Below, one piece after another: positions 29,597-39,152 of a stretch of DNA of 49,945 nt (within the stretch, counting starts at the first letter, position 1; each line of letters opens with the position of its first letter). The translations under genes were made by a program, and so were the position numbers. Below the pieces are notes generated by a model. The model ran no database searches and was not told where the DNA came from. It saw nothing but the letters and a program-made list of their open reading frames with translations. Origin of the DNA: Phycisphaerales bacterium Planc_01 (lineage in GTDB: Bacteria > Planctomycetota > Phycisphaerae > Sedimentisphaerales > Anaerobacaceae); the NCBI GenBank assembly GCA_001603075.1, contig LVBB01000057.1, forward strand, positions 1 to 49,945, written 5' to 3'.

Positions 29597-32437
29597 TTAC
29601 CGGGATCGCAGGATTTCTTCGCCGTCACGGAGGACGCGCAGGCGGGTGCGGTTGTCGCGGGGGACGTCGAACTGCAATTCATCGATCTGGTCGGACCATT
29701 CGAGGCGGGCTGTGCCGGTGTCGGCATCGACACTGACCGAGGGCAGGTCCTCGCCCATTCGGAACGGGACCAGCACGATGCGGAACCGGCACTCGACGGT
29801 CTCGGCGGCAACGAGGGTACGGCCCCGCACGTTCTCCAGCCGACAGGCGGACGGCCCGACCTCCTGCACCAGCAGCATGGGTGTGCCATCCGGAATCCTG
29901 TCCCCCTGTGCGGCGGTCAATACGAGTGTCTTGGGATCGAGTCCCGGCAAGGTCGCCGTCCGGAACCCGCCCGGCATCTGCCATTCGTAGAGATGTGTGC
30001 TGTCGTCCTTGCGGATGTCGTCGATGACGATTGCATAGGGATGGCCGCCGCGAACCAGACCCGCCGAACGATAGGCGTAAGCGACCGGGTTGAACCGCGT
30101 GCGCACTGTGGGAAACCATCGGTTGCGCAACGGCGGCGCCCAGTGATTGATGCGGTAGCGCTGCGTGCCCTTGAGGACTCGCACGACGAGCGGATCGATC
30201 TCCAACTCCCAGGAGCGTCCCGCGATCGGCTCGGCGTTCCAGTCGACCACCCGGCTCGCCCAGAGCCAATCGTAGGCGTTGCGGAGATCGACTGAGGCGA
30301 TGGCCCCGGTCTGGGCGATGGCGGCGCCGAGATACGCCACTCGCGGCGGCGACAGGCCGGCGCCGTCGTCCTGCCCCACACCGTCGATCAGAACGATGGC
30401 ATGGTCTGCCGATGCCGGGTCGTCGTCGGAGAGCCCGTCGCGTCCCCAGGTCACGCCGTGGGCCTGAAGATAGAATGAGCCGGCGTCGTGGTGCGCAGGC
30501 CCACCGCCAAGATAGAGGTCGGGCCGGGCCTGCATGTTGATCCACAACGCCTCGACGCTGTTGTCGCTGCGCGAGGAGAACAGCCCCTGGGACGGATTGC
30601 TGAAATCCAGCGGCAGACCAAGCGCCTCTCGCGATGTCGCGCGCCAGGGCGCGTCGTACAGCAGGCTCTTCGCCAGCCCCGGATCGGTCAGGCCCGGCAA
30701 GGACATAGGTTCGGCATCGAGCGAGGCAATCTTTCGGCGATACTGCTGCGGATCGAATTCGGCAACGGCGTGGGCCGGACCCAGCAGATAGTCGGCGCAT
30801 CGGTCGTTCGGGTACAGGACCTTCCACGCCGCAACAACCTGCCGGCTCAACGGCTCGCTGCCCCGCGTCCCCCGAGAGGCCGTCACGACGCCGTCGGGCG
30901 AAGTGCACTGCACCTGCGATTCGAGCAACTGTCGCCAGTGTGGATGGCCGAAGGTGTTGACGCCCCGCCGCGCCAGCGCCACCATCGAAAGCAGTTGGAA
31001 TGGCAGGCCCTCCCCGCTGCTTCCGTTGGATTCGTGCAGCGTGCCGTATTCGTCGATGCCCCACTGCAGGAAAGCCTTGACCGTCTCAATGCCGCAATCG
31101 TGCACTTGTTCGTCGAAACCCTCTTCGCCTTCGATGGCCAGATTGGCCAGGAAGATCGTCAGGTCGCGCGTAACCCAGTGGTTGTCGCGGACGCGCAGCG
31201 GGCCGTTCTGGCCGTATCCGCGCCGGCCCGCCACCACCTTGCCGATGAGGCGCCGAACGAGCGTACGTTGCTCATCCGTCATCCACTTGGCGGCAAAATC
31301 GTAATTCAGCCCCAGGTCCGTCGGTCCGATCCACCCCGGCGTGTCGCGCCAGTAGACGTTGTATACGTCGGGCCGATCCATGTGGGCGTCGACGCGGGGC
31401 TCGATGAGGCGGCAGTAATTGGCGATCGCCGAGGCAACCTTCGTCCCGAGATCGTCGTCCCCGCTCAACAGGGCATACAACGCGATCGCATTGAGATTCC
31501 GTGTGAGACGGTTGGTTTGTCCGTCCGTCGCACCCTGTTCCGAAGACACGGCGGCGACAAGCTGATCGGCATCAAGATCCCCGGCAACGAGCTGTGCGAA
31601 GAGCCGTCCTTCCCCGGTACCGGCATCCAGCCAGGTCTTGCCCAACAGGTATTCTGTCTCGATCAGGGACATTGCGCCGGTCACGGACGACTTGATGCGC
31701 GCCAGGATCAGAGGGACATCCTGAGGGCTGAACAGGATACGCGGGTGCACCCCCGGCGCCGGCACATCACTGGCCAACTCGTGCATGCCGAGGGTCGGGG
31801 TGTCGTATCGCTTCTCCGAGATCAGCCGCCACTGTGTTTCCGGGTCGTCATAGAGCGCCAGTTGGCTTGGCGTGAACGCGACGTGTTCGGCCCAGCGGCC
31901 CCATGCCCTCAGGCTGGGGATGTTTCGGTAGGCGATCTGCGGATCGGCGAACTTCTCCGGCGTGTCGAACAGCGTGATAATCGAGTCAATCAACTGCGAA
32001 TCGCCGAGCGTCATCGGCGTATCACTGACGATCACCAGACCTCGCTCTTCCGTGAACACCTTCTTGCCAAGCCGGGCAGCCAGGTCGGCAATGGCGACCA
32101 TCCGGCCCTTCTCTGCGATCCGGAACCCGAACCAGGGCAGGTGCTTGATGCCGAAGGCCGACAAGGCAAACCGCTTCGGGACCATCACCTTTCCTTTGAC
32201 CACTTCGGCTTCCGTCCGCCAGTTGTCCGGATCGAGGCGAATCTGCTGTCCCTCGACGAACCCATGCCGCCCGCCGGCGAAGACCACGACCAGAGTGTCG
32301 TTGAGCCTGGCCCTGGCCGCCTCGGTGGCCTGGCGGCTGTATGCCCCCAAGTCCGCACCGGCGGCGCCCCGGCCGACGCCGGTCCTGACGGCCATGACCG
32401 TAGTCGTCACCAGAATTGCCGTGATGAGTCTTTTCAT
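29597..32437 (-). CDS. Exported heparinase II/III-like polysaccharide lyase
   Basis: 946 aa from the start at 32437 (MKRLITAILVTTTVMAVRTG), chosen for its signal peptide; the longer frame begins with unrelated sequence. Residues about 35-135 resemble a copper-amine-oxidase N-terminal-like domain ('FVEGQQIRLDPDNWRTEAEV', 'VMVPKRFALSAFGIKHL'), a small binding unit found on many secreted enzymes. Residues about 240-590 form an alpha-helical toroid typical of alginate/heparin lyases ('HPRILFSPQDVPLILARIKS', 'GLNYDFAAKWMTDEQRTLVR', 'YGTLHESNGSSGEGLPFQLL'). The C-terminal beta part carries the heparinase-type segment 'PAHHDAGSFYLQAHGVTWGR'. Likely substrate: an acidic glycan of algae or animals (inference). 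Confidence 0.85.
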   Translation of the reverse strand: MKRLITAILVTTTVMAVRTGVGRGAAGADLGAYSRQATEAARARLNDTLVVVFAGGRHGFVEGQQIRLDPDNWRTEAEVVKGKVMVPKRFALSAFGIKHLPWFGFRIAEKGRMVAIADLAARLGKKVFTEERGLVIVSDTPMTLGDSQLIDSIITLFDTPEKFADPQIAYRNIPSLRAWGRWAEHVAFTPSQLALYDDPETQWRLISEKRYDTPTLGMHELASDVPAPGVHPRILFSPQDVPLILARIKSSVTGAMSLIETEYLLGKTWLDAGTGEGRLFAQLVAGDLDADQLVAAVSSEQGATDGQTNRLTRNLNAIALYALLSGDDDLGTKVASAIANYCRLIEPRVDAHMDRPDVYNVYWRDTPGWIGPTDLGLNYDFAAKWMTDEQRTLVRRLIGKVVAGRRGYGQNGPLRVRDNHWVTRDLTIFLANLAIEGEEGFDEQVHDCGIETVKAFLQWGIDEYGTLHESNGSSGEGLPFQLLSMVALARRGVNTFGHPHWRQLLESQVQCTSPDGVVTASRGTRGSEPLSRQVVAAWKVLYPNDRCADYLLGPAHAVAEFDPQQYRRKIASLDAEPMSLPGLTDPGLAKSLLYDAPWRATSREALGLPLDFSNPSQGLFSSRSDNSVEALWINMQARPDLYLGGGPAHHDAGSFYLQAHGVTWGRDGLSDDDPASADHAIVLIDGVGQDDGAGLSPPRVAYLGAAIAQTGAIASVDLRNAYDWLWASRVVDWNAEPIAGRSWELEIDPLVVRVLKGTQRYRINHWAPPLRNRWFPTVRTRFNPVAYAYRSAGLVRGGHPYAIVIDDIRKDDSTHLYEWQMPGGFRTATLPGLDPKTLVLTAAQGDRIPDGTPMLLVQEVGPSACRLENVRGRTLVAAETVECRFRIVLVPFRMGEDLPSVSVDADTGTARLEWSDQIDELQFDVPRDNRTRLRVLRDGEEILRSR

Positions 32438-33006
32438 CTTCCAATGATGCTCCGTACCGAACCGCCGCACCGGCCCGCAGCCGATGCCTGTAAACCAGCA
32501 TACCCGAAATCCCGCCTTCTTGCCAGAAAACGTCATCACCGAACGCATCCGGCGGCCCGGCAAGAGACGATTCCGCATGGGAACACCCACCTCGGTCCCA
32601 TATTCTACGAGTTTCTACACGGCCACAAACGCCGTCTGAAAAAGTCTGCTCGCCAACCGATTTCTGTTCGGTTTTTGTTTGGGTTTTCCAGACGGCATGG
32701 TCGATAGAACATGACGAAGAACAAACCGAAACGGAACCACGGGCTTGTGTGGGGATTCAAGGATGGACGCGTACAGGAACAACAGGATCGACCCGGTGTG
32801 CAAGTTCGGGACGGGCGGCGAGTATATCTCGACGTGGCCGCCTTCGCGCATGCCGTTTTGCGATCCTTCGGCCGGGGCACTGACGAAGGTGCTGTCGTGC
32901 CTGGTCGAGATCATGGGTGTGGTATCGGGGGTCCGGTGCGTCCGGCCCGCCGACGGGATGGTGCAGACGGCTCTTGCCCCGCGAGCCGCTCTGGAGGAAA
33001 GCAAAG
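32438..33006. other. 569-bp divergent intergenic region (heparinase-like / lexA)
   Basis: No gene I can defend. A frame from 32763 has some protein-like composition but overlaps lexA by 250 bases and shows no family signal. A local AT-rich patch at about 32610-32720 contains the nested inverted repeat listed separately. I looked for a LexA box ahead of lexA (including GAAC...GTTC forms) and found none that is convincing. Confidence 0.5.
32631..32696. repeat. Nested inverted repeat in an AT-rich patch
   Basis: Outer arms GCCGTCTG (32631-32638) and CAGACGGC (32689-32696) enclose a 6-bp hairpin AACCGA/TCGGTT (32655-32660, 32668-32673) followed by TTTGTTTGGGTTTT. The inner hairpin plus T-rich tail looks like a weak plus-strand terminator, but no plus-strand gene lies upstream of it. 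Confidence 0.45.
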
Positions 33007-33669
33007 ATGCACGCACGATACGTAGAACCCATCGACGGGTTGACACCCCGCCAAGTCGAGGTGCTCAGACTCATCGGCTCTTTCTGCGACAGTCAACGCT
33101 ATTCCCCGACGATCGCCGAACTGGCGTCGCGGATGGCCATCAGCCGAAGCACAGTGTTCGAACACCTCGCCGAACTGCAAAGAAAAGGACTTCTCTCGAC
33201 CTCGCCGGGCAGGGCACGCTCTTTGAGACTGACCTCAAGCGGGCACGCACTGCTTGACCAGCTCGATGCGGGCGAGCCGGGCGAGAATCCCGAGTGGCCT
33301 GGGGGTGTGCCCCTGCTGGGCCAGATCGCCGCCGGCCTGCCGCGCGAGGCGATCGAGAACACCGAATCGATCTCGCTCGAATCCTGCTTCGGACTCGGGG
33401 CCGACCTGTTCGCTTTGGAGGTCTCCGGCGACAGCATGATCGAGGAGAACATCGAGCCGGGCGACTACGTCATCTGCCGGCGGACGAACGTGGCCGACAA
33501 CGGGGACCTCGTCGTCGCCCTGGTCGACGACGGCGAAGCAACCCTGAAACGCTTCTACAAGGAAGATCACTGCATTCGTCTTCAGCCGGCCAATGCAAAC
33601 TACGCGCCGATCCACACGAACAACTGCCACATCGAAGGCATCGTCGTCGGCCTGGTGCGCCGCCTCTGA
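33007..33669 (+). CDS. lexA: LexA repressor (SOS response)
   Basis: 220 aa from ATG 33007 (MHARYVEPIDGLTPRQVEVL), after CTGGAGGAAAG. The winged helix is at about 10-75, recognition segment 'TIAELASRMAISRSTVFEHL'. The self-cleavage machinery is intact: scissile bond A109-G110 in 'LLGQIAAGLPRE', nucleophile S143 in 'VSGDSMIEENIEPGDYVI', and K181 in 'GEATLKRFYKE'. LexA represses DNA-repair genes until RecA filaments trigger cleavage. It is convergent with the NYN gene, 21 bp apart. No operator could be defined by eye. Confidence 0.95.
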   Translation: MHARYVEPIDGLTPRQVEVLRLIGSFCDSQRYSPTIAELASRMAISRSTVFEHLAELQRKGLLSTSPGRARSLRLTSSGHALLDQLDAGEPGENPEWPGGVPLLGQIAAGLPREAIENTESISLESCFGLGADLFALEVSGDSMIEENIEPGDYVICRRTNVADNGDLVVALVDDGEATLKRFYKEDHCIRLQPANANYAPIHTNNCHIEGIVVGLVRRL

Positions 33670-33690: not shown

Positions 33691-34170
33691 CTACTCGTCC
33701 AGTCCGAACAGATCGAGCCACTGCTCGGTCTCGCCATCGGTCAGGCCGTCCCGCTTCTCCTCCGGCTCCTTGACGGCCGGCTTGTCGCGGCGAAGTTCGT
33801 TGAGAACCTGACTCCAGAACTGATCCGATTTGACCGTGGCCGCCTTCCTGGCGGCGACGGCCTGTCGCAACCGACGGTCGTTGCTGACCACCGTCAGTCG
33901 CCGGGGCGACGTGCTGGCCGCCACCTTCTCCTCGATCACCGTGTCGGCGTCGCTGTGAAATCCGGAGAACACCACGCTCAGCCGGCCGACGGAATCGAAT
34001 TCGCTCTTGTCCGGCGGTCCGGCTCCATCGAAGACCACCTCGCCTTCCTCGGATGTCATCGCGAAATAGCGATCCAGTGTCCGACAAAGCTGAATCTCAT
34101 TCGTCACTTCGGGCTCATCACGGACCTCGTGAATCGCCCACAACAGATTCGTTCCATCGATAATCACCAT
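33691..34170 (-). CDS. YacP-like NYN-domain protein (putative ribonuclease)
   Basis: 159 aa. The NYN/PIN-like fold is marked by acidic residues: 'MVIIDGTNLLWAIHEVR', 'VVFDGAGPPDKSEFDS', 'FSGFHSDADTVIEEKV', 'RLTVVSNDRRLRQAVAA'. YacP (Rae1) relatives are endoribonucleases in Bacillus, where Rae1 works at the ribosome. The C-terminal 40 residues are charged and probably flexible. It is the last gene in a run with the CPBP-like protein and pyrC, with gaps of 38 and 60 bp. Confidence 0.85.
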   Translation of the reverse strand: MVIIDGTNLLWAIHEVRDEPEVTNEIQLCRTLDRYFAMTSEEGEVVFDGAGPPDKSEFDSVGRLSVVFSGFHSDADTVIEEKVAASTSPRRLTVVSNDRRLRQAVAARKAATVKSDQFWSQVLNELRRDKPAVKEPEEKRDGLTDGETEQWLDLFGLDE

Positions 34171-36375: not shown

Positions 36376-36427
36376 AGGTTTTTGCCGGGTCGCGCGCCGT
36401 CCCGTCGGGGGCCCGAGTCAAAAACCT
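36376..36427. repeat. Inverted repeat between pyrC and the TPR-alpha-CTD gene
   Basis: AGGTTTTTG (36376-36384) and CAAAAACCT (36419-36427) are perfect 9-bp arms 34 nt apart around a GC-rich core. The right arm ends one base before the -35 box of the promoter at 36429-36456, so it could be a regulator site. Apart from this repeat and that promoter, the rest of 36201-36524 shows no gene. Confidence 0.5.
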
Positions 36428-36428
36428 G

Positions 36429-36456
36429 TTGCAACGCGGACAGCCCACCGTATAAT
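36429..36456 (+). promoter_or_regulatory. Sigma-70-type promoter of the TPR-alpha-CTD gene
   Basis: TTGCAA (36429-36434), a 16-nt spacer, then the perfect TATAAT (36451-36456). The leader to the start at 36525 is about 62 nt. Confidence 0.65.
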
Positions 36457-36524
36457 ACCGCTTTGTCAGATTCAGGGGTCCACGTACGACCGATGTGAAC
36501 AGGTCCTTTTGGGAGACGATATCC

Positions 36525-37835
36525 ATGGAGCAGATTTCCGAACGGGAGATTGACCTTTTTGCGGCGCAACTGCCGTCGATGAAAGAGCTGCACGCCCTGT
36601 CGCGCCTCGTCAACTCCAGCGAGTCCAGCCGCATCAAGTTCGCCGAGAGAGTCAAGGCAGAATCCGGAAAGACGTCAGCGGAAGCCAACCTGGCGGTCGG
36701 AATCGGCCTGTTCCTGCTCGGCAAACACGCCGAGGCTGTGGAAAAGCTCCAGAAGGCCAAAGACGGCATCGAGAAGTTCACCTTTCTGGCGTACGCCCTG
36801 CGGAAACGCCACCGATACGCCGAGGCGATCGACTGCCTGCAGAGGACCCTCGATTTCGGGGCCGAACCGTTGAACGTCAACCTCGAGAAGGCGGCCACCT
36901 ATCGGGAAGGACGCGATCTGGACGCAGCCGCCAGGGAACTGGGCGCCTGCAAGAATTTCGAGAACGTCAGCGCTGAATACCACTACCAACTCGGTCGCCT
37001 TCAGGAAGCCCGGGGCGATTACGACAAGGCCGTGCAGAACTACAGGACGGTCCTGGAGCTGGCCCCGGAACACCATCGCGCGCTGTTCCACCTGGCCTAT
37101 CGCCACGATCTGTCCGGATACGAGTCGGCGGCGATCGACTATTACAAGCAGGCGATCGCGTGCGCCCCGGCCTATATCAGCGCCCTGCTGAACTTGGCGG
37201 TCCTTTACGAAGACAGCGGCCAGTTCGATAAGGCCAGCGCGTGCATCGACAAGGTGCTCGAGTGCCACCCCAACCACCCGCGTGCCCGGCTCTTCAAGAA
37301 GGACGTCGACAGCTCCAAGACGATGTACTATGACGAGGAGCGGGAGAAGAAGAGGAGCCGCAAGAATCAGATCCTCGAGACGCCCATTTCCGATTTCGAA
37401 CTGTCGGTTCGCAGCAGGAACTGCCTGAGGAAGATGAACATCCGCACCCTGGGCGACCTGCTCAATATCACCGAGGCCGAACTGCTGAGCTACAAGAACT
37501 TCGGCGAAACCTCGCTCCGTGAGATCAAGGCGATCCTGGACACCAAGGGGCTTCGCCTGGGTATGGCGCTGGAAGACAAGAGCCTGGCGTCGGGTGACCT
37601 TTCCGGGCCAAGCTCGCCGGAAGAACAGGGCCTGTTGAACAAGCTCGTGGACGACCTCCAACTGTCCGTGCGGGCCCGCAAATGCCTTCAGAAGCTCAAT
37701 CTCCACACCGTCGGCGAGCTGACGCGCACGACGGAGGCCGAGCTTCTCGGCTGCAAGAACTTCGGCGTCACCAGCCTGAACGAGATCAAGAAGGCCCTCT
37801 CGGGTCTTGGCCTTTCGCTGAGAAACCTTGATTAG
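36525..37835 (+). CDS. TPR protein with two RNA-polymerase alpha-CTD-like domains
   Basis: 436 aa from ATG 36525 (MEQISEREIDLFAAQLPSMK), after GGGAG. Residues about 50-265 are TPR-type repeats ('EANLAVGIGLFLLGKHAEAV', 'YHYQLGRLQEARGDYDKAVQ', 'ALLNLAVLYEDSGQFDKASA'). Then come a basic linker and two copies of the alpha-subunit C-terminal helix-hairpin-helix unit: about 288-346 ('FELSVRSRNCLRKMNIRTLG', 'LLSYKNFGETSLREIKAIL') and about 374-436 ('LQLSVRARKCLQKLNLHTVG', 'LLGCKNFGVTSLNEIKKAL'). In E. coli alpha this unit binds UP elements and activators. Copy 1 keeps the R..N DNA-contact pattern; copy 2 has Lys instead of Asn. It is not RpoA, since the N-terminal assembly domain is absent. Role in transcription control is inference. 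Confidence 0.9.
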   Translation: MEQISEREIDLFAAQLPSMKELHALSRLVNSSESSRIKFAERVKAESGKTSAEANLAVGIGLFLLGKHAEAVEKLQKAKDGIEKFTFLAYALRKRHRYAEAIDCLQRTLDFGAEPLNVNLEKAATYREGRDLDAAARELGACKNFENVSAEYHYQLGRLQEARGDYDKAVQNYRTVLELAPEHHRALFHLAYRHDLSGYESAAIDYYKQAIACAPAYISALLNLAVLYEDSGQFDKASACIDKVLECHPNHPRARLFKKDVDSSKTMYYDEEREKKRSRKNQILETPISDFELSVRSRNCLRKMNIRTLGDLLNITEAELLSYKNFGETSLREIKAILDTKGLRLGMALEDKSLASGDLSGPSSPEEQGLLNKLVDDLQLSVRARKCLQKLNLHTVGELTRTTEAELLGCKNFGVTSLNEIKKALSGLGLSLRNLD

Positions 37836-37853: not shown

Positions 37854-39152
37854 ATGTCCTTGCTGTCGTGCAACAAGCCGTTTCCGACCCTGGCCAGCGG
37901 GCGGGCCTCCAGGCCGCCGGCGTGTGGCGGGCGTCTTGCGGCCAGGGCGGCGCAGGGCCTGATCGCGGCGATGGTTCTCCTGTCGGGCTGCAGTCGGCGG
38001 GAAATCGTCCGTCCCACGCCTCAGATGGATGCGGATTCGCGGTTCTGGGTGCGTGTCCTGCTGCTGCCCAACGCCACCGAGTGCACCGTGGCGGCGATGT
38101 CGCCGATGCACGTCGGCGCCCACGGCGGGGTCGGGCCGGTCGACGGTCCTCTCCGCGTGACCGTCTCCGACGGACGCCTGCACCTCGGAGCAACGTCCCA
38201 TTCCGCCGAAGAGGTGACGATCGGCACCGAAGAGCCCCATGTGTTCTCCCTGAATGGGCAGAGCTACCGCGGCAGGCTCCGACTGGTCCGCAACAGCGAC
38301 GGCCGGACGTTCAACGCCGTCAACATCGTCCCGCTGGAACCCTACCTGGCCGGCGTCGTCGGCGCCGAGATGCCCGCCTATTGGGAGCCCCAGGCGCTGC
38401 GGGCCCAGGCCATCGCCGCCAGGACCTATTGCCTCTACACCAAGAACCGGTTCGGCGTCCAGCGCGCCTGGGACGTCAGCAGCACACAGGCCAGCCAGGT
38501 GTATCGCGGGCTCAGCGCCGAAACGGCGCAGATATGGAATGCCGTCACCGCCACCTACGGCAAAGTGCTGGTCTCCCGACCAGGCCAGAGCCCCGAGACG
38601 GGTCTGTTCCCGACCTATTACAGCTCTATTTGCGGCGGGCACACCGAGAACTGCGAGCGCGTCTTCGGCGAGGCCTTCGCACCGCTCAAGGCGGTGCCCT
38701 GCCCCTACTGCAAAGACGTCGCGAAGATGGGCATGTTCTTCTGGCCGATGGCCCAGTTCGACCGGGCCACCGTGACGGCCCGTCTGATCGAGAGGTATCC
38801 GGCCTTGGAGAAACTCGGAGAGATCACCGGCATCGTCGCCATCGAGAAGAGCGACCACGGCCAGTTCGCGCGACTGACCAAGGTCCGTCTGACCGGCTCG
38901 ACGGGCAAGACCGAAACCCTGCGGGGCGAAGACCTTCGCCTGACCCTTGACCCGAGCGGACGCAAGATCCAGAGCACGATCTGCCACATCGTTCCCTGGG
39001 GCGACGGCTGGGCCTTCCTTTCCGGGCGCGGATGGGGCCACGGCGTCGGCATGTGCCAGTGCGGGGCCGAGGGCATGGCCCGGCTTGGCAAGACGGCCGA
39101 GGAGATTCTCCAACATTACTACCCTGGCTCCGCGATCGCGAGCCTTTACTGA
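37854..39152 (+). CDS. SpoIID/LytB-domain lipoprotein
   Basis: 432 aa. The signal 'LAARAAQGLIAAMVLLSGC' has a lipobox cysteine at about residue 46, behind a long basic N-terminus; the ribosome-binding site is poor, and ATG 37971 is an alternative start. The SpoIID domain is complete: 'VPLEPYLAGVVGAEMPAYWE', 'ALRAQAIAARTYCLYTKNR', 'SSICGGHTENCERVFGE' and, at the end, 'GRGWGHGVGMCQCGAEGMAR' and 'EEILQHYYPGSA'. SpoIID is a lytic transglycosylase of sporulation; relatives in non-sporulating Gram-negatives act on or bind peptidoglycan. It follows the TPR-alpha-CTD gene by 18 bp and may be co-transcribed. Confidence 0.9.
   Translation: MSLLSCNKPFPTLASGRASRPPACGGRLAARAAQGLIAAMVLLSGCSRREIVRPTPQMDADSRFWVRVLLLPNATECTVAAMSPMHVGAHGGVGPVDGPLRVTVSDGRLHLGATSHSAEEVTIGTEEPHVFSLNGQSYRGRLRLVRNSDGRTFNAVNIVPLEPYLAGVVGAEMPAYWEPQALRAQAIAARTYCLYTKNRFGVQRAWDVSSTQASQVYRGLSAETAQIWNAVTATYGKVLVSRPGQSPETGLFPTYYSSICGGHTENCERVFGEAFAPLKAVPCPYCKDVAKMGMFFWPMAQFDRATVTARLIERYPALEKLGEITGIVAIEKSDHGQFARLTKVRLTGSTGKTETLRGEDLRLTLDPSGRKIQSTICHIVPWGDGWAFLSGRGWGHGVGMCQCGAEGMARLGKTAEEILQHYYPGSAIASLY

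Follow-up and report, generated by a model that had tools for sequence, protein, structure and literature searches.

In E. coli, the C-terminal domain of the RNA polymerase α subunit (α-CTD) contacts the minor groove of DNA through R265, N268, C269, G296, K298, S299 and E302, while its 261 determinant faces R603 of sigma, and the region just upstream of the -35 element is where the polymerase's own α-CTD can bind. α-CTDs are also known outside RpoA, namely in the BREX kinase PglW and in small stand-alone proteins. TPR transcription regulators are likewise known, and AfsR and the RRNPP group combine a TPR superhelix with a DNA-binding domain of the helix-turn-helix type.

The gene described here lies in a 49,945-nucleotide stretch of a Planctomycetota genome, hereafter the window, and encodes a protein in which two tandem α-CTDs (CTD1 and CTD2) follow a TPR array. 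Thus, the best-studied DNA- and activator-contacting module of bacterial RNA polymerase is carried twice, outside the polymerase, by a gene that is near-universal in its phylum. The features of the locus are as follows.

36429..36456, + strand: sigma70-type promoter TTGCAA-N16-TATAAT, assigned by sequence
36512..36516, + strand: Shine-Dalgarno-like GGAGA, 8 nt 5' of the ATG, seen in 12 of 12 sequences including the window (by eye)
36525..37835, + strand: coding sequence of the TPR protein with two α-CTDs, 436 aa, ATG at 36525 and stop codon TAG at 37833-37835
36525..36971, + strand: N-terminal half of a helical TPR-like superhelix, residues 1-149, weakly conserved
36972..37325, + strand: conserved TPR core, residues 150-267, from Pfam TPR_1/TPR_2, conservation and fold match
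37350..37574, + strand: CTD1, residues 276-350, from Pfam and sequence match to solved α-CTDs
37617..37832, + strand: CTD2, residues 365-436, from Pfam and fold match; placed at 37617-37802 by the genome search
37854..39152, + strand: gene of a SpoIID-domain protein, probable operon partner, 18 nt after the stop codon
39218..44589, + strand: tgt, yajC and secDF, the rest of the probable operon, context only

An alternative, longer frame would begin with the GTG at 36495, but the ATG at 36525 is favoured because in the window, as in each of the 11 closest loci examined, GGAGA stands before this very ATG. Further upstream, TTGCA-N17-TATAAT is present in 12 of 12 sequences (the window and 11 other loci), and a run of at least four A, which in the window occupies 36420-36424 directly upstream of the -35 element, is found just 5' of the -35 in all 12 (by eye). 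The initial annotation took this promoter as strong and the gene as well expressed. The promoter itself is borne out by its sequence and conservation, but the same -35/-10 pair occurs at 14 sites in the genome (reversed-pattern control, 0), which marks it as ordinary, and it tells little about expression level. We also considered a special regulon defined by an A-tract, TTGCA and TATAAT, and rejected it given these 14 sites; in eight of them, the one in the window among these, four or more consecutive A or T are seen within 30 bases upstream (by eye).

The α-CTD assignment of the C-terminal part rests on profile, sequence and fold comparisons. Pfam RNA_pol_A_CTD (PF03118) matches two stretches (E 3.2e-43), with 145.7 bits against a gathering score of 23.8, the better stretch being residues 276-339. 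By sequence, CTD1 aligns with the solved E. coli α-CTDs 1coo_A (query residues 274-353, E 3e-15) and 1lb2_B (282-353, E 1.2e-14). Modelled alone, the C-terminal part has a pLDDT of 76 overall and mostly 80-86 inside the domains, and it superimposes on the Caulobacter α-CTD bound to A/T-rich DNA (9zum_A) with an rmsd of 0.7 over 64 columns at 52% identity, a match for which the fold search does not state whether CTD1 or CTD2 is the aligned domain. The CTD2 model aligns with other solved α-CTDs at Z 12-13, so that the α-CTD fold is recognised for CTD2 by fold search and for CTD1 by sequence match to solved α-CTDs. These results bear out the reading, made initially from the letters alone, of tandem α-CTDs on a TPR array outside rpoA: the open reading frame is in place and Pfam finds two RNA_pol_A_CTD stretches together with TPRs. 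Structure prediction had been proposed as a check in that annotation, which folds other than that of α-CTD would have contradicted, and the C-terminal model does match α-CTDs. Moreover, the architecture is not a chance combination, since TPR and α-CTD models both match every one of the 85 homologs scanned.

Pfam TPR models match residues 150-256 (TPR_1, E 5.9e-20), and in the full-length AlphaFold model, built with 85 homologs (mean pLDDT 91, pTM 0.65), fifteen helices run as far as residue 266, after which a helix at 271-284 leads to two small helical domains. Residues 6-267, approximately, resemble solved TPR superhelices. The best match is 1w3b, the TPR domain of O-GlcNAc transferase, to which model residues 3-267 align at Z 21.5 with an rmsd of 5.3 over 241, and both the profile and the helical superhelix place the protein among TPR proteins. 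The fold matches of this part include the co-chaperone and assembly-factor scaffolds RPAP3 and Tom71 among many other TPR proteins. PHROGs yields no more than two weak matches, both within the TPR part and with families that have no known function. The linker between TPR core and CTD1 usually reads M-x-Y-D-E. The N-terminal half of the TPR part is missing from several shorter homologs (310-346 aa, with start codons chosen by script), and CTD2 is lost in four genomes (G088, G195, G239 and G275, of genera g92 and g202 and family f49), where the protein ends after CTD1. Because some homologs lack CTD2 and others the N-terminal TPR half, the smallest unit seen is TPR core, linker and CTD1. In the near-complete g92/g202 lineage without CTD2 (L163-L166), CTD1 and the TPR core are kept and ruvA still lies downstream.

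The distribution of the gene is broader than the initial annotation, which allowed that similar architectures may exist in other planctomycetes, had supposed. A search with a threshold of E <= 1e-20 that scored the five best candidates per genome finds it in 277 of the 294 Planctomycetota genomes sampled; of the 155 assemblies with completeness of 90% or more and contamination of 5% or less, 153 have it. There is a single match at the threshold in all but one of the 277, the exception (G091) being a genome in which the ends of the gene lie on two contigs. Fifteen of the 17 genomes without a match are less than 90% complete. In one of the other two (G143), the opening 437 bases of a contig hold α-CTD matches, as though the gene had been truncated there, and in the second (G031, 90% complete) the gene is missing without such a contig-edge explanation. 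Small genomes (<=2.0 Mb) carry it in 7 of the 8 listed, and nearer relatives in 60 of 61, the remaining genome (G375, 68% complete) matching with an RpoA-like domain only. Since nearly every genome examined carries the protein, it is probably a basic part of gene handling in the phylum. Among 118 genomes at least 95% complete, 97 have exactly three α-CTDs, 4 have two and 17 have four to six, in a census that counts domains and does not assign the owner protein of each genome by genome; in the window's genome, one α-CTD belongs to RpoA and two to the TPR/α-CTD protein. Among 72,556 plasmid records searched with the protein, 79 gave matches, none with a place covering 80% of the protein; five of the 15 rows listed carry an annotated feature, in every case rpoA. 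A scan of genome contigs with one-sequence patterns, whose reach is close relatives, gave planctomycete titles for all of the best 80 of 158 relatives.

CTD1 is more conserved than the α-CTD of RpoA itself. In the same ten genomes (45 pairs; G167, whose RpoA domain the script missed, was left out), its mean pairwise identity is 72.1% (52-92), compared with 62.2% (47-80) for the α-CTD of RpoA and 58.9% for the whole of RpoA; CTD2 reaches 58.9% (33-78) and the TPR core 41.4%. The mean identity of CTD1 to the RpoA of the same genome is 48% (52% to E. coli). Residue by residue, in E. coli α numbering, we counted 95 homologs thinned at 80% identity, drawn from 134 homologs less two loci (L002 and L003) that are the same gene as a third (L004) and mostly from the window's order and family; 85 of the 95 entered the full alignment and 77 the C-terminal alignment. 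CTD1 retains R265 in 95, N268 in 94, C269 in 93, N294 in 95, G296 in 95, S299 in 94 and E302 in 95, and thereby the minor-groove contacts except that of K298, which is Thr in 93 of 95, as it also is in 25 of 25 RpoA of the phylum. The acidic sigma-facing pair is kept as well (D259 in 92, E261 in 93), as are acidic position 286 (95/95) and position 288 (E in 88, D in 6), and the protein of the window's genome that best matches RpoD has Arg at the place of sigma70 R603 (HPVR; by eye). At two places CTD1 departs from the polymerase domain: position 267 carries a basic residue, Arg or Lys, in all 95, where 22 of 25 RpoA of the phylum have Ser, and position 297 carries an acidic one, Glu or Asp, in all 95, where 25 of 25 RpoA have Lys, the RpoA set being 28 loci, 25 of them distinct, taken from the best-scoring α-CTD census matches and leaning to family f49. 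CTD2 keeps R265 and E302 in 95 of 95 and G296 and S299 in 92, and departs at position 268, which is Lys or Arg in 86 of 95, and at position 269 (C in 55, A in 37). The mean net charge is +2.8 for CTD2, the more basic domain, and +0.6 for both CTD1 and the RpoA α-CTD. The initial annotation had picked out the DNA-contact Arg and Asn of the first unit, which are Arg265 and Asn268 of CTD1, and an Asn-to-Lys change in the second; Lys is indeed found at position 268 of CTD2, and its occurrence as Lys/Arg across 86 of the homologs makes this a feature of the phylum and not a quirk of one sequence.

In a tree of 90 domains and 63 columns (30 of 95 CTD1, 30 of 95 CTD2, 21 of 28 planctomycete RpoA and nine outgroup RpoA), three groups are obtained, with support of 98/86 for CTD1, 98/89 for CTD2 and 99/97 for RpoA. 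With so few columns, rooting and deep branching are uncertain; CTD2 has several long branches, and the tree program flags long branches that meet. From these separate groups, CTD1 and CTD2 look old and differentiated, and the duplication and split appear to predate the sampled phylum. Recent copying of an RpoA α-CTD within the phylum is unsupported, as the 21 planctomycete RpoA domains group with the nine outgroup RpoA and not with CTD1 or CTD2. On so short a tree, the origin of the pair from RpoA may lie on the stem of the phylum or further back.

Taken together, these features lead us to suggest, tentatively and at a level somewhat short of probable, that the protein is a soluble, phylum-wide core protein that offers two extra α-CTDs in trans and serves as a scaffold in global transcription-associated regulation or promoter organisation. 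In A/T-rich DNA, CTD1 would grip the minor groove in the manner of the polymerase α-CTD, and CTD2 would do likewise with altered specificity. The site would probably lie at or near promoters, where the conserved acidic pair of CTD1 could face sigma region 4, and the groove of the TPR superhelix would dock a partner protein at the bound DNA, the net effect being on global transcription or on the organisation of promoters. α-CTDs acting in trans near sigma are the simplest reading, given that the strictest conservation takes in the face of CTD1 that meets the minor groove and its pair of residues towards sigma. Binding to UP-like DNA, as the initial annotation proposed, or action next to polymerase, is plausible from the residues, since both units are α-CTDs whose DNA and sigma surfaces are kept, most strictly in CTD1; competition with α and the bridging of activators to polymerase, raised in the same annotation, would be hypothetical further roles. 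Several observations speak against the promoter scaffold: the Glu/Asp at 297 of CTD1 sits beside the DNA loop, where it could make DNA contact weaker or differently directed, the K298 contact is replaced by Thr (though also in the RpoA of the phylum), CTD1 is not notably basic, its charge being that of the RpoA α-CTD, the neighbours ruvA, spoIID, tgt, yajC and secDF are not transcription genes, CTD2 has been lost in a near-complete lineage, and the A-tract promoter is not particular to this gene. A more far-reaching version, which we consider doubtful, would make the protein a phylum-specific general factor, that is, a near-universal and probably essential companion of RNA polymerase that places two α-CTDs in trans beside sigma at many promoters and whose CTD1 is constrained beyond the polymerase's own α-CTD.

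The gene neighbourhood bears on what the protein might do instead. Among 80 nearer loci, spoIID is the first of three downstream markers in 73 of the 73 with at least 1.5 kb of downstream sequence. Across 50 phylum-wide loci, which include the window and nine weak or odd matches, the first of four downstream markers is ruvA in 28, spoIID in 4 and tgt in 2, with none in 16, an upper bound as some stretches are short; in 19 loci, ruvA follows the last sense codon by no more than 100 nt. The identities of representative neighbours were assigned by Pfam, which finds helix-hairpin-helix domains in RuvA. A distant lineage (L123) carries the order gene, ruvA, ruvB, queH, spoIID, tgt, yajC, which suggests that an old cluster has been shortened to the order found in the window. 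Because ruvA neighbours the gene, and RuvA too has helix-hairpin-helix domains, a nucleoid or recombination protein is conceivable, in which the tandem α-CTDs would be general minor-groove or helix-hairpin-helix grips on DNA and the TPRs would bring in RuvAB or other proteins of repair or DNA organisation, promoters playing no part. We regard this as rather unlikely: ruvA is on a different contig from the gene in the window's genome, the nearer loci have spoIID next, and adjacency need not mean shared function, as the same cluster holds tgt, yajC and secDF. Moreover, the D259/E261 pair, which plain DNA binding would not need, is kept. The operon-like link to spoIID, tgt, yajC and secDF could instead mean that the protein serves these neighbours (queuosine tRNA modification, the SpoIID-domain protein or Sec export), its α-CTDs having been recruited to bind RNA or protein; this is very improbable, as the linkage shifts across the phylum, from ruvA to no marker found, while the protein stays. 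No defence gene was recognised among nine Pfam-scanned neighbours, two of which have no family. Elsewhere in the window, an open reading frame of 997 aa (29597-32590, - strand) has no Pfam family at E <= 1e-5, and a LexA-type repressor lies beside a YacP-like NYN-domain protein on opposite strands (33010-33666, +, and 33691-34170, -).

The same residues that would allow contact with sigma also permit a reading without DNA binding, in which the α-CTDs are bait for α-binding proteins such as sigma region 4, NusA or activators, and the protein is, for example, a decoy, an assembly factor for RNA polymerase or an anti-activator. The kept sigma-facing pair and acidic positions 286 and 288, the Glu297 of CTD1 where RpoA has Lys, the modest charge of this domain and the presence of RPAP3 and Tom71 among the fold matches, alongside many other TPR proteins, are consistent with such docking. 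However, R265, N268, G296, S299 and E302 are among the strictest-kept residues and would be needless in a bait that does not bind DNA, and we therefore find it unlikely. Were the protein to act at promoters as a transcription-associated scaffold, textbook models in which α is the main source of α-CTDs would fail for planctomycetes, and work on planctomycete gene regulation would need to include it. A published genome-wide transposon (TraDIS) screen (PMC10632474) gives essentiality data for the cultured Planctopirus limnophila, which makes the role directly testable in a cultured member. A literature search for a name or function returned no paper describing the protein and no assigned function, and the words 'TPR' and 'tetratricopeptide' are missing from the main texts of PMC3444138 and PMC12283558.

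Compared with the known carriers of the module, the protein is closest in its domains to RpoA, whose α-CTD (PF03118) has the same fold, nearly the same DNA-contact residues and about half of its residues identical. In contrast to RpoA, it has no α N-terminal domain, bears two tandem copies on a TPR scaffold and falls into separate groups in the domain tree, and its domains differ by the Arg/Lys at 267 and Glu/Asp at 297 of CTD1 and the Lys/Arg at 268 of most CTD2. The window's genome has a separate rpoA, the N-terminal part of the protein studied is TPR, and the NCBIfam rpoA models reach at best 149.7 against a cut-off of 302, with their best stretches in the C-terminal domains, so that it is not an RpoA; none of the 25 NCBIfam matches listed for the protein reaches its family's cut-off.

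PglW (NF033442, PDLC02512), the only PADLOC family matched at E <= 0.001, resembles it in having an α-CTD outside RpoA, but is a protein of ~1400 aa with NERD and kinase domains, neither of which is present here. NF033442 gives 36.4 bits against a cut-off of 990, with its best stretch in the α-CTD, and a kinase domain is absent from the 24 families at E <= 0.001 for the window protein. A PglW-like defence role was accordingly rejected on size, domains and neighbours. A true BREX PglW kinase with one α-CTD is found in a related genome (L271:1985-6238, - strand; NF033442, 1655 bits against the cut-off of 990).

Stand-alone α-CTD proteins (NF005841, PRK07758, 'hypothetical protein') likewise have an α-CTD outside RpoA, but consist of one domain without TPRs, and the NF005841 model scores 46.5 bits against the protein, far under the cut-off of 115. 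Two such proteins, of 88 and 135 aa (L274:457-720 and L272:547-951, both - strand), occur in planctomycete genomes with at least four α-CTDs. In two further planctomycetes, proteins of 795 aa (L269:2374-4758, + strand) and 789 aa (L270:100-2466, - strand) combine three or two α-CTDs with sigma70 region 4, the former also with a weak HARE-HTH match, and are another use of the α-CTD outside RpoA. The TPR regulators of the AfsR/RRNPP type are similar in joining a TPR superhelix to a DNA-binding part, but theirs is a helix-turn-helix, a family of which there is none among the 24 found at E <= 0.001 for the window protein, which thus falls outside this type. The α-CTD module is itself known; what appears to be new is its tandem arrangement on a TPR carrier that is near-universal in a phylum.
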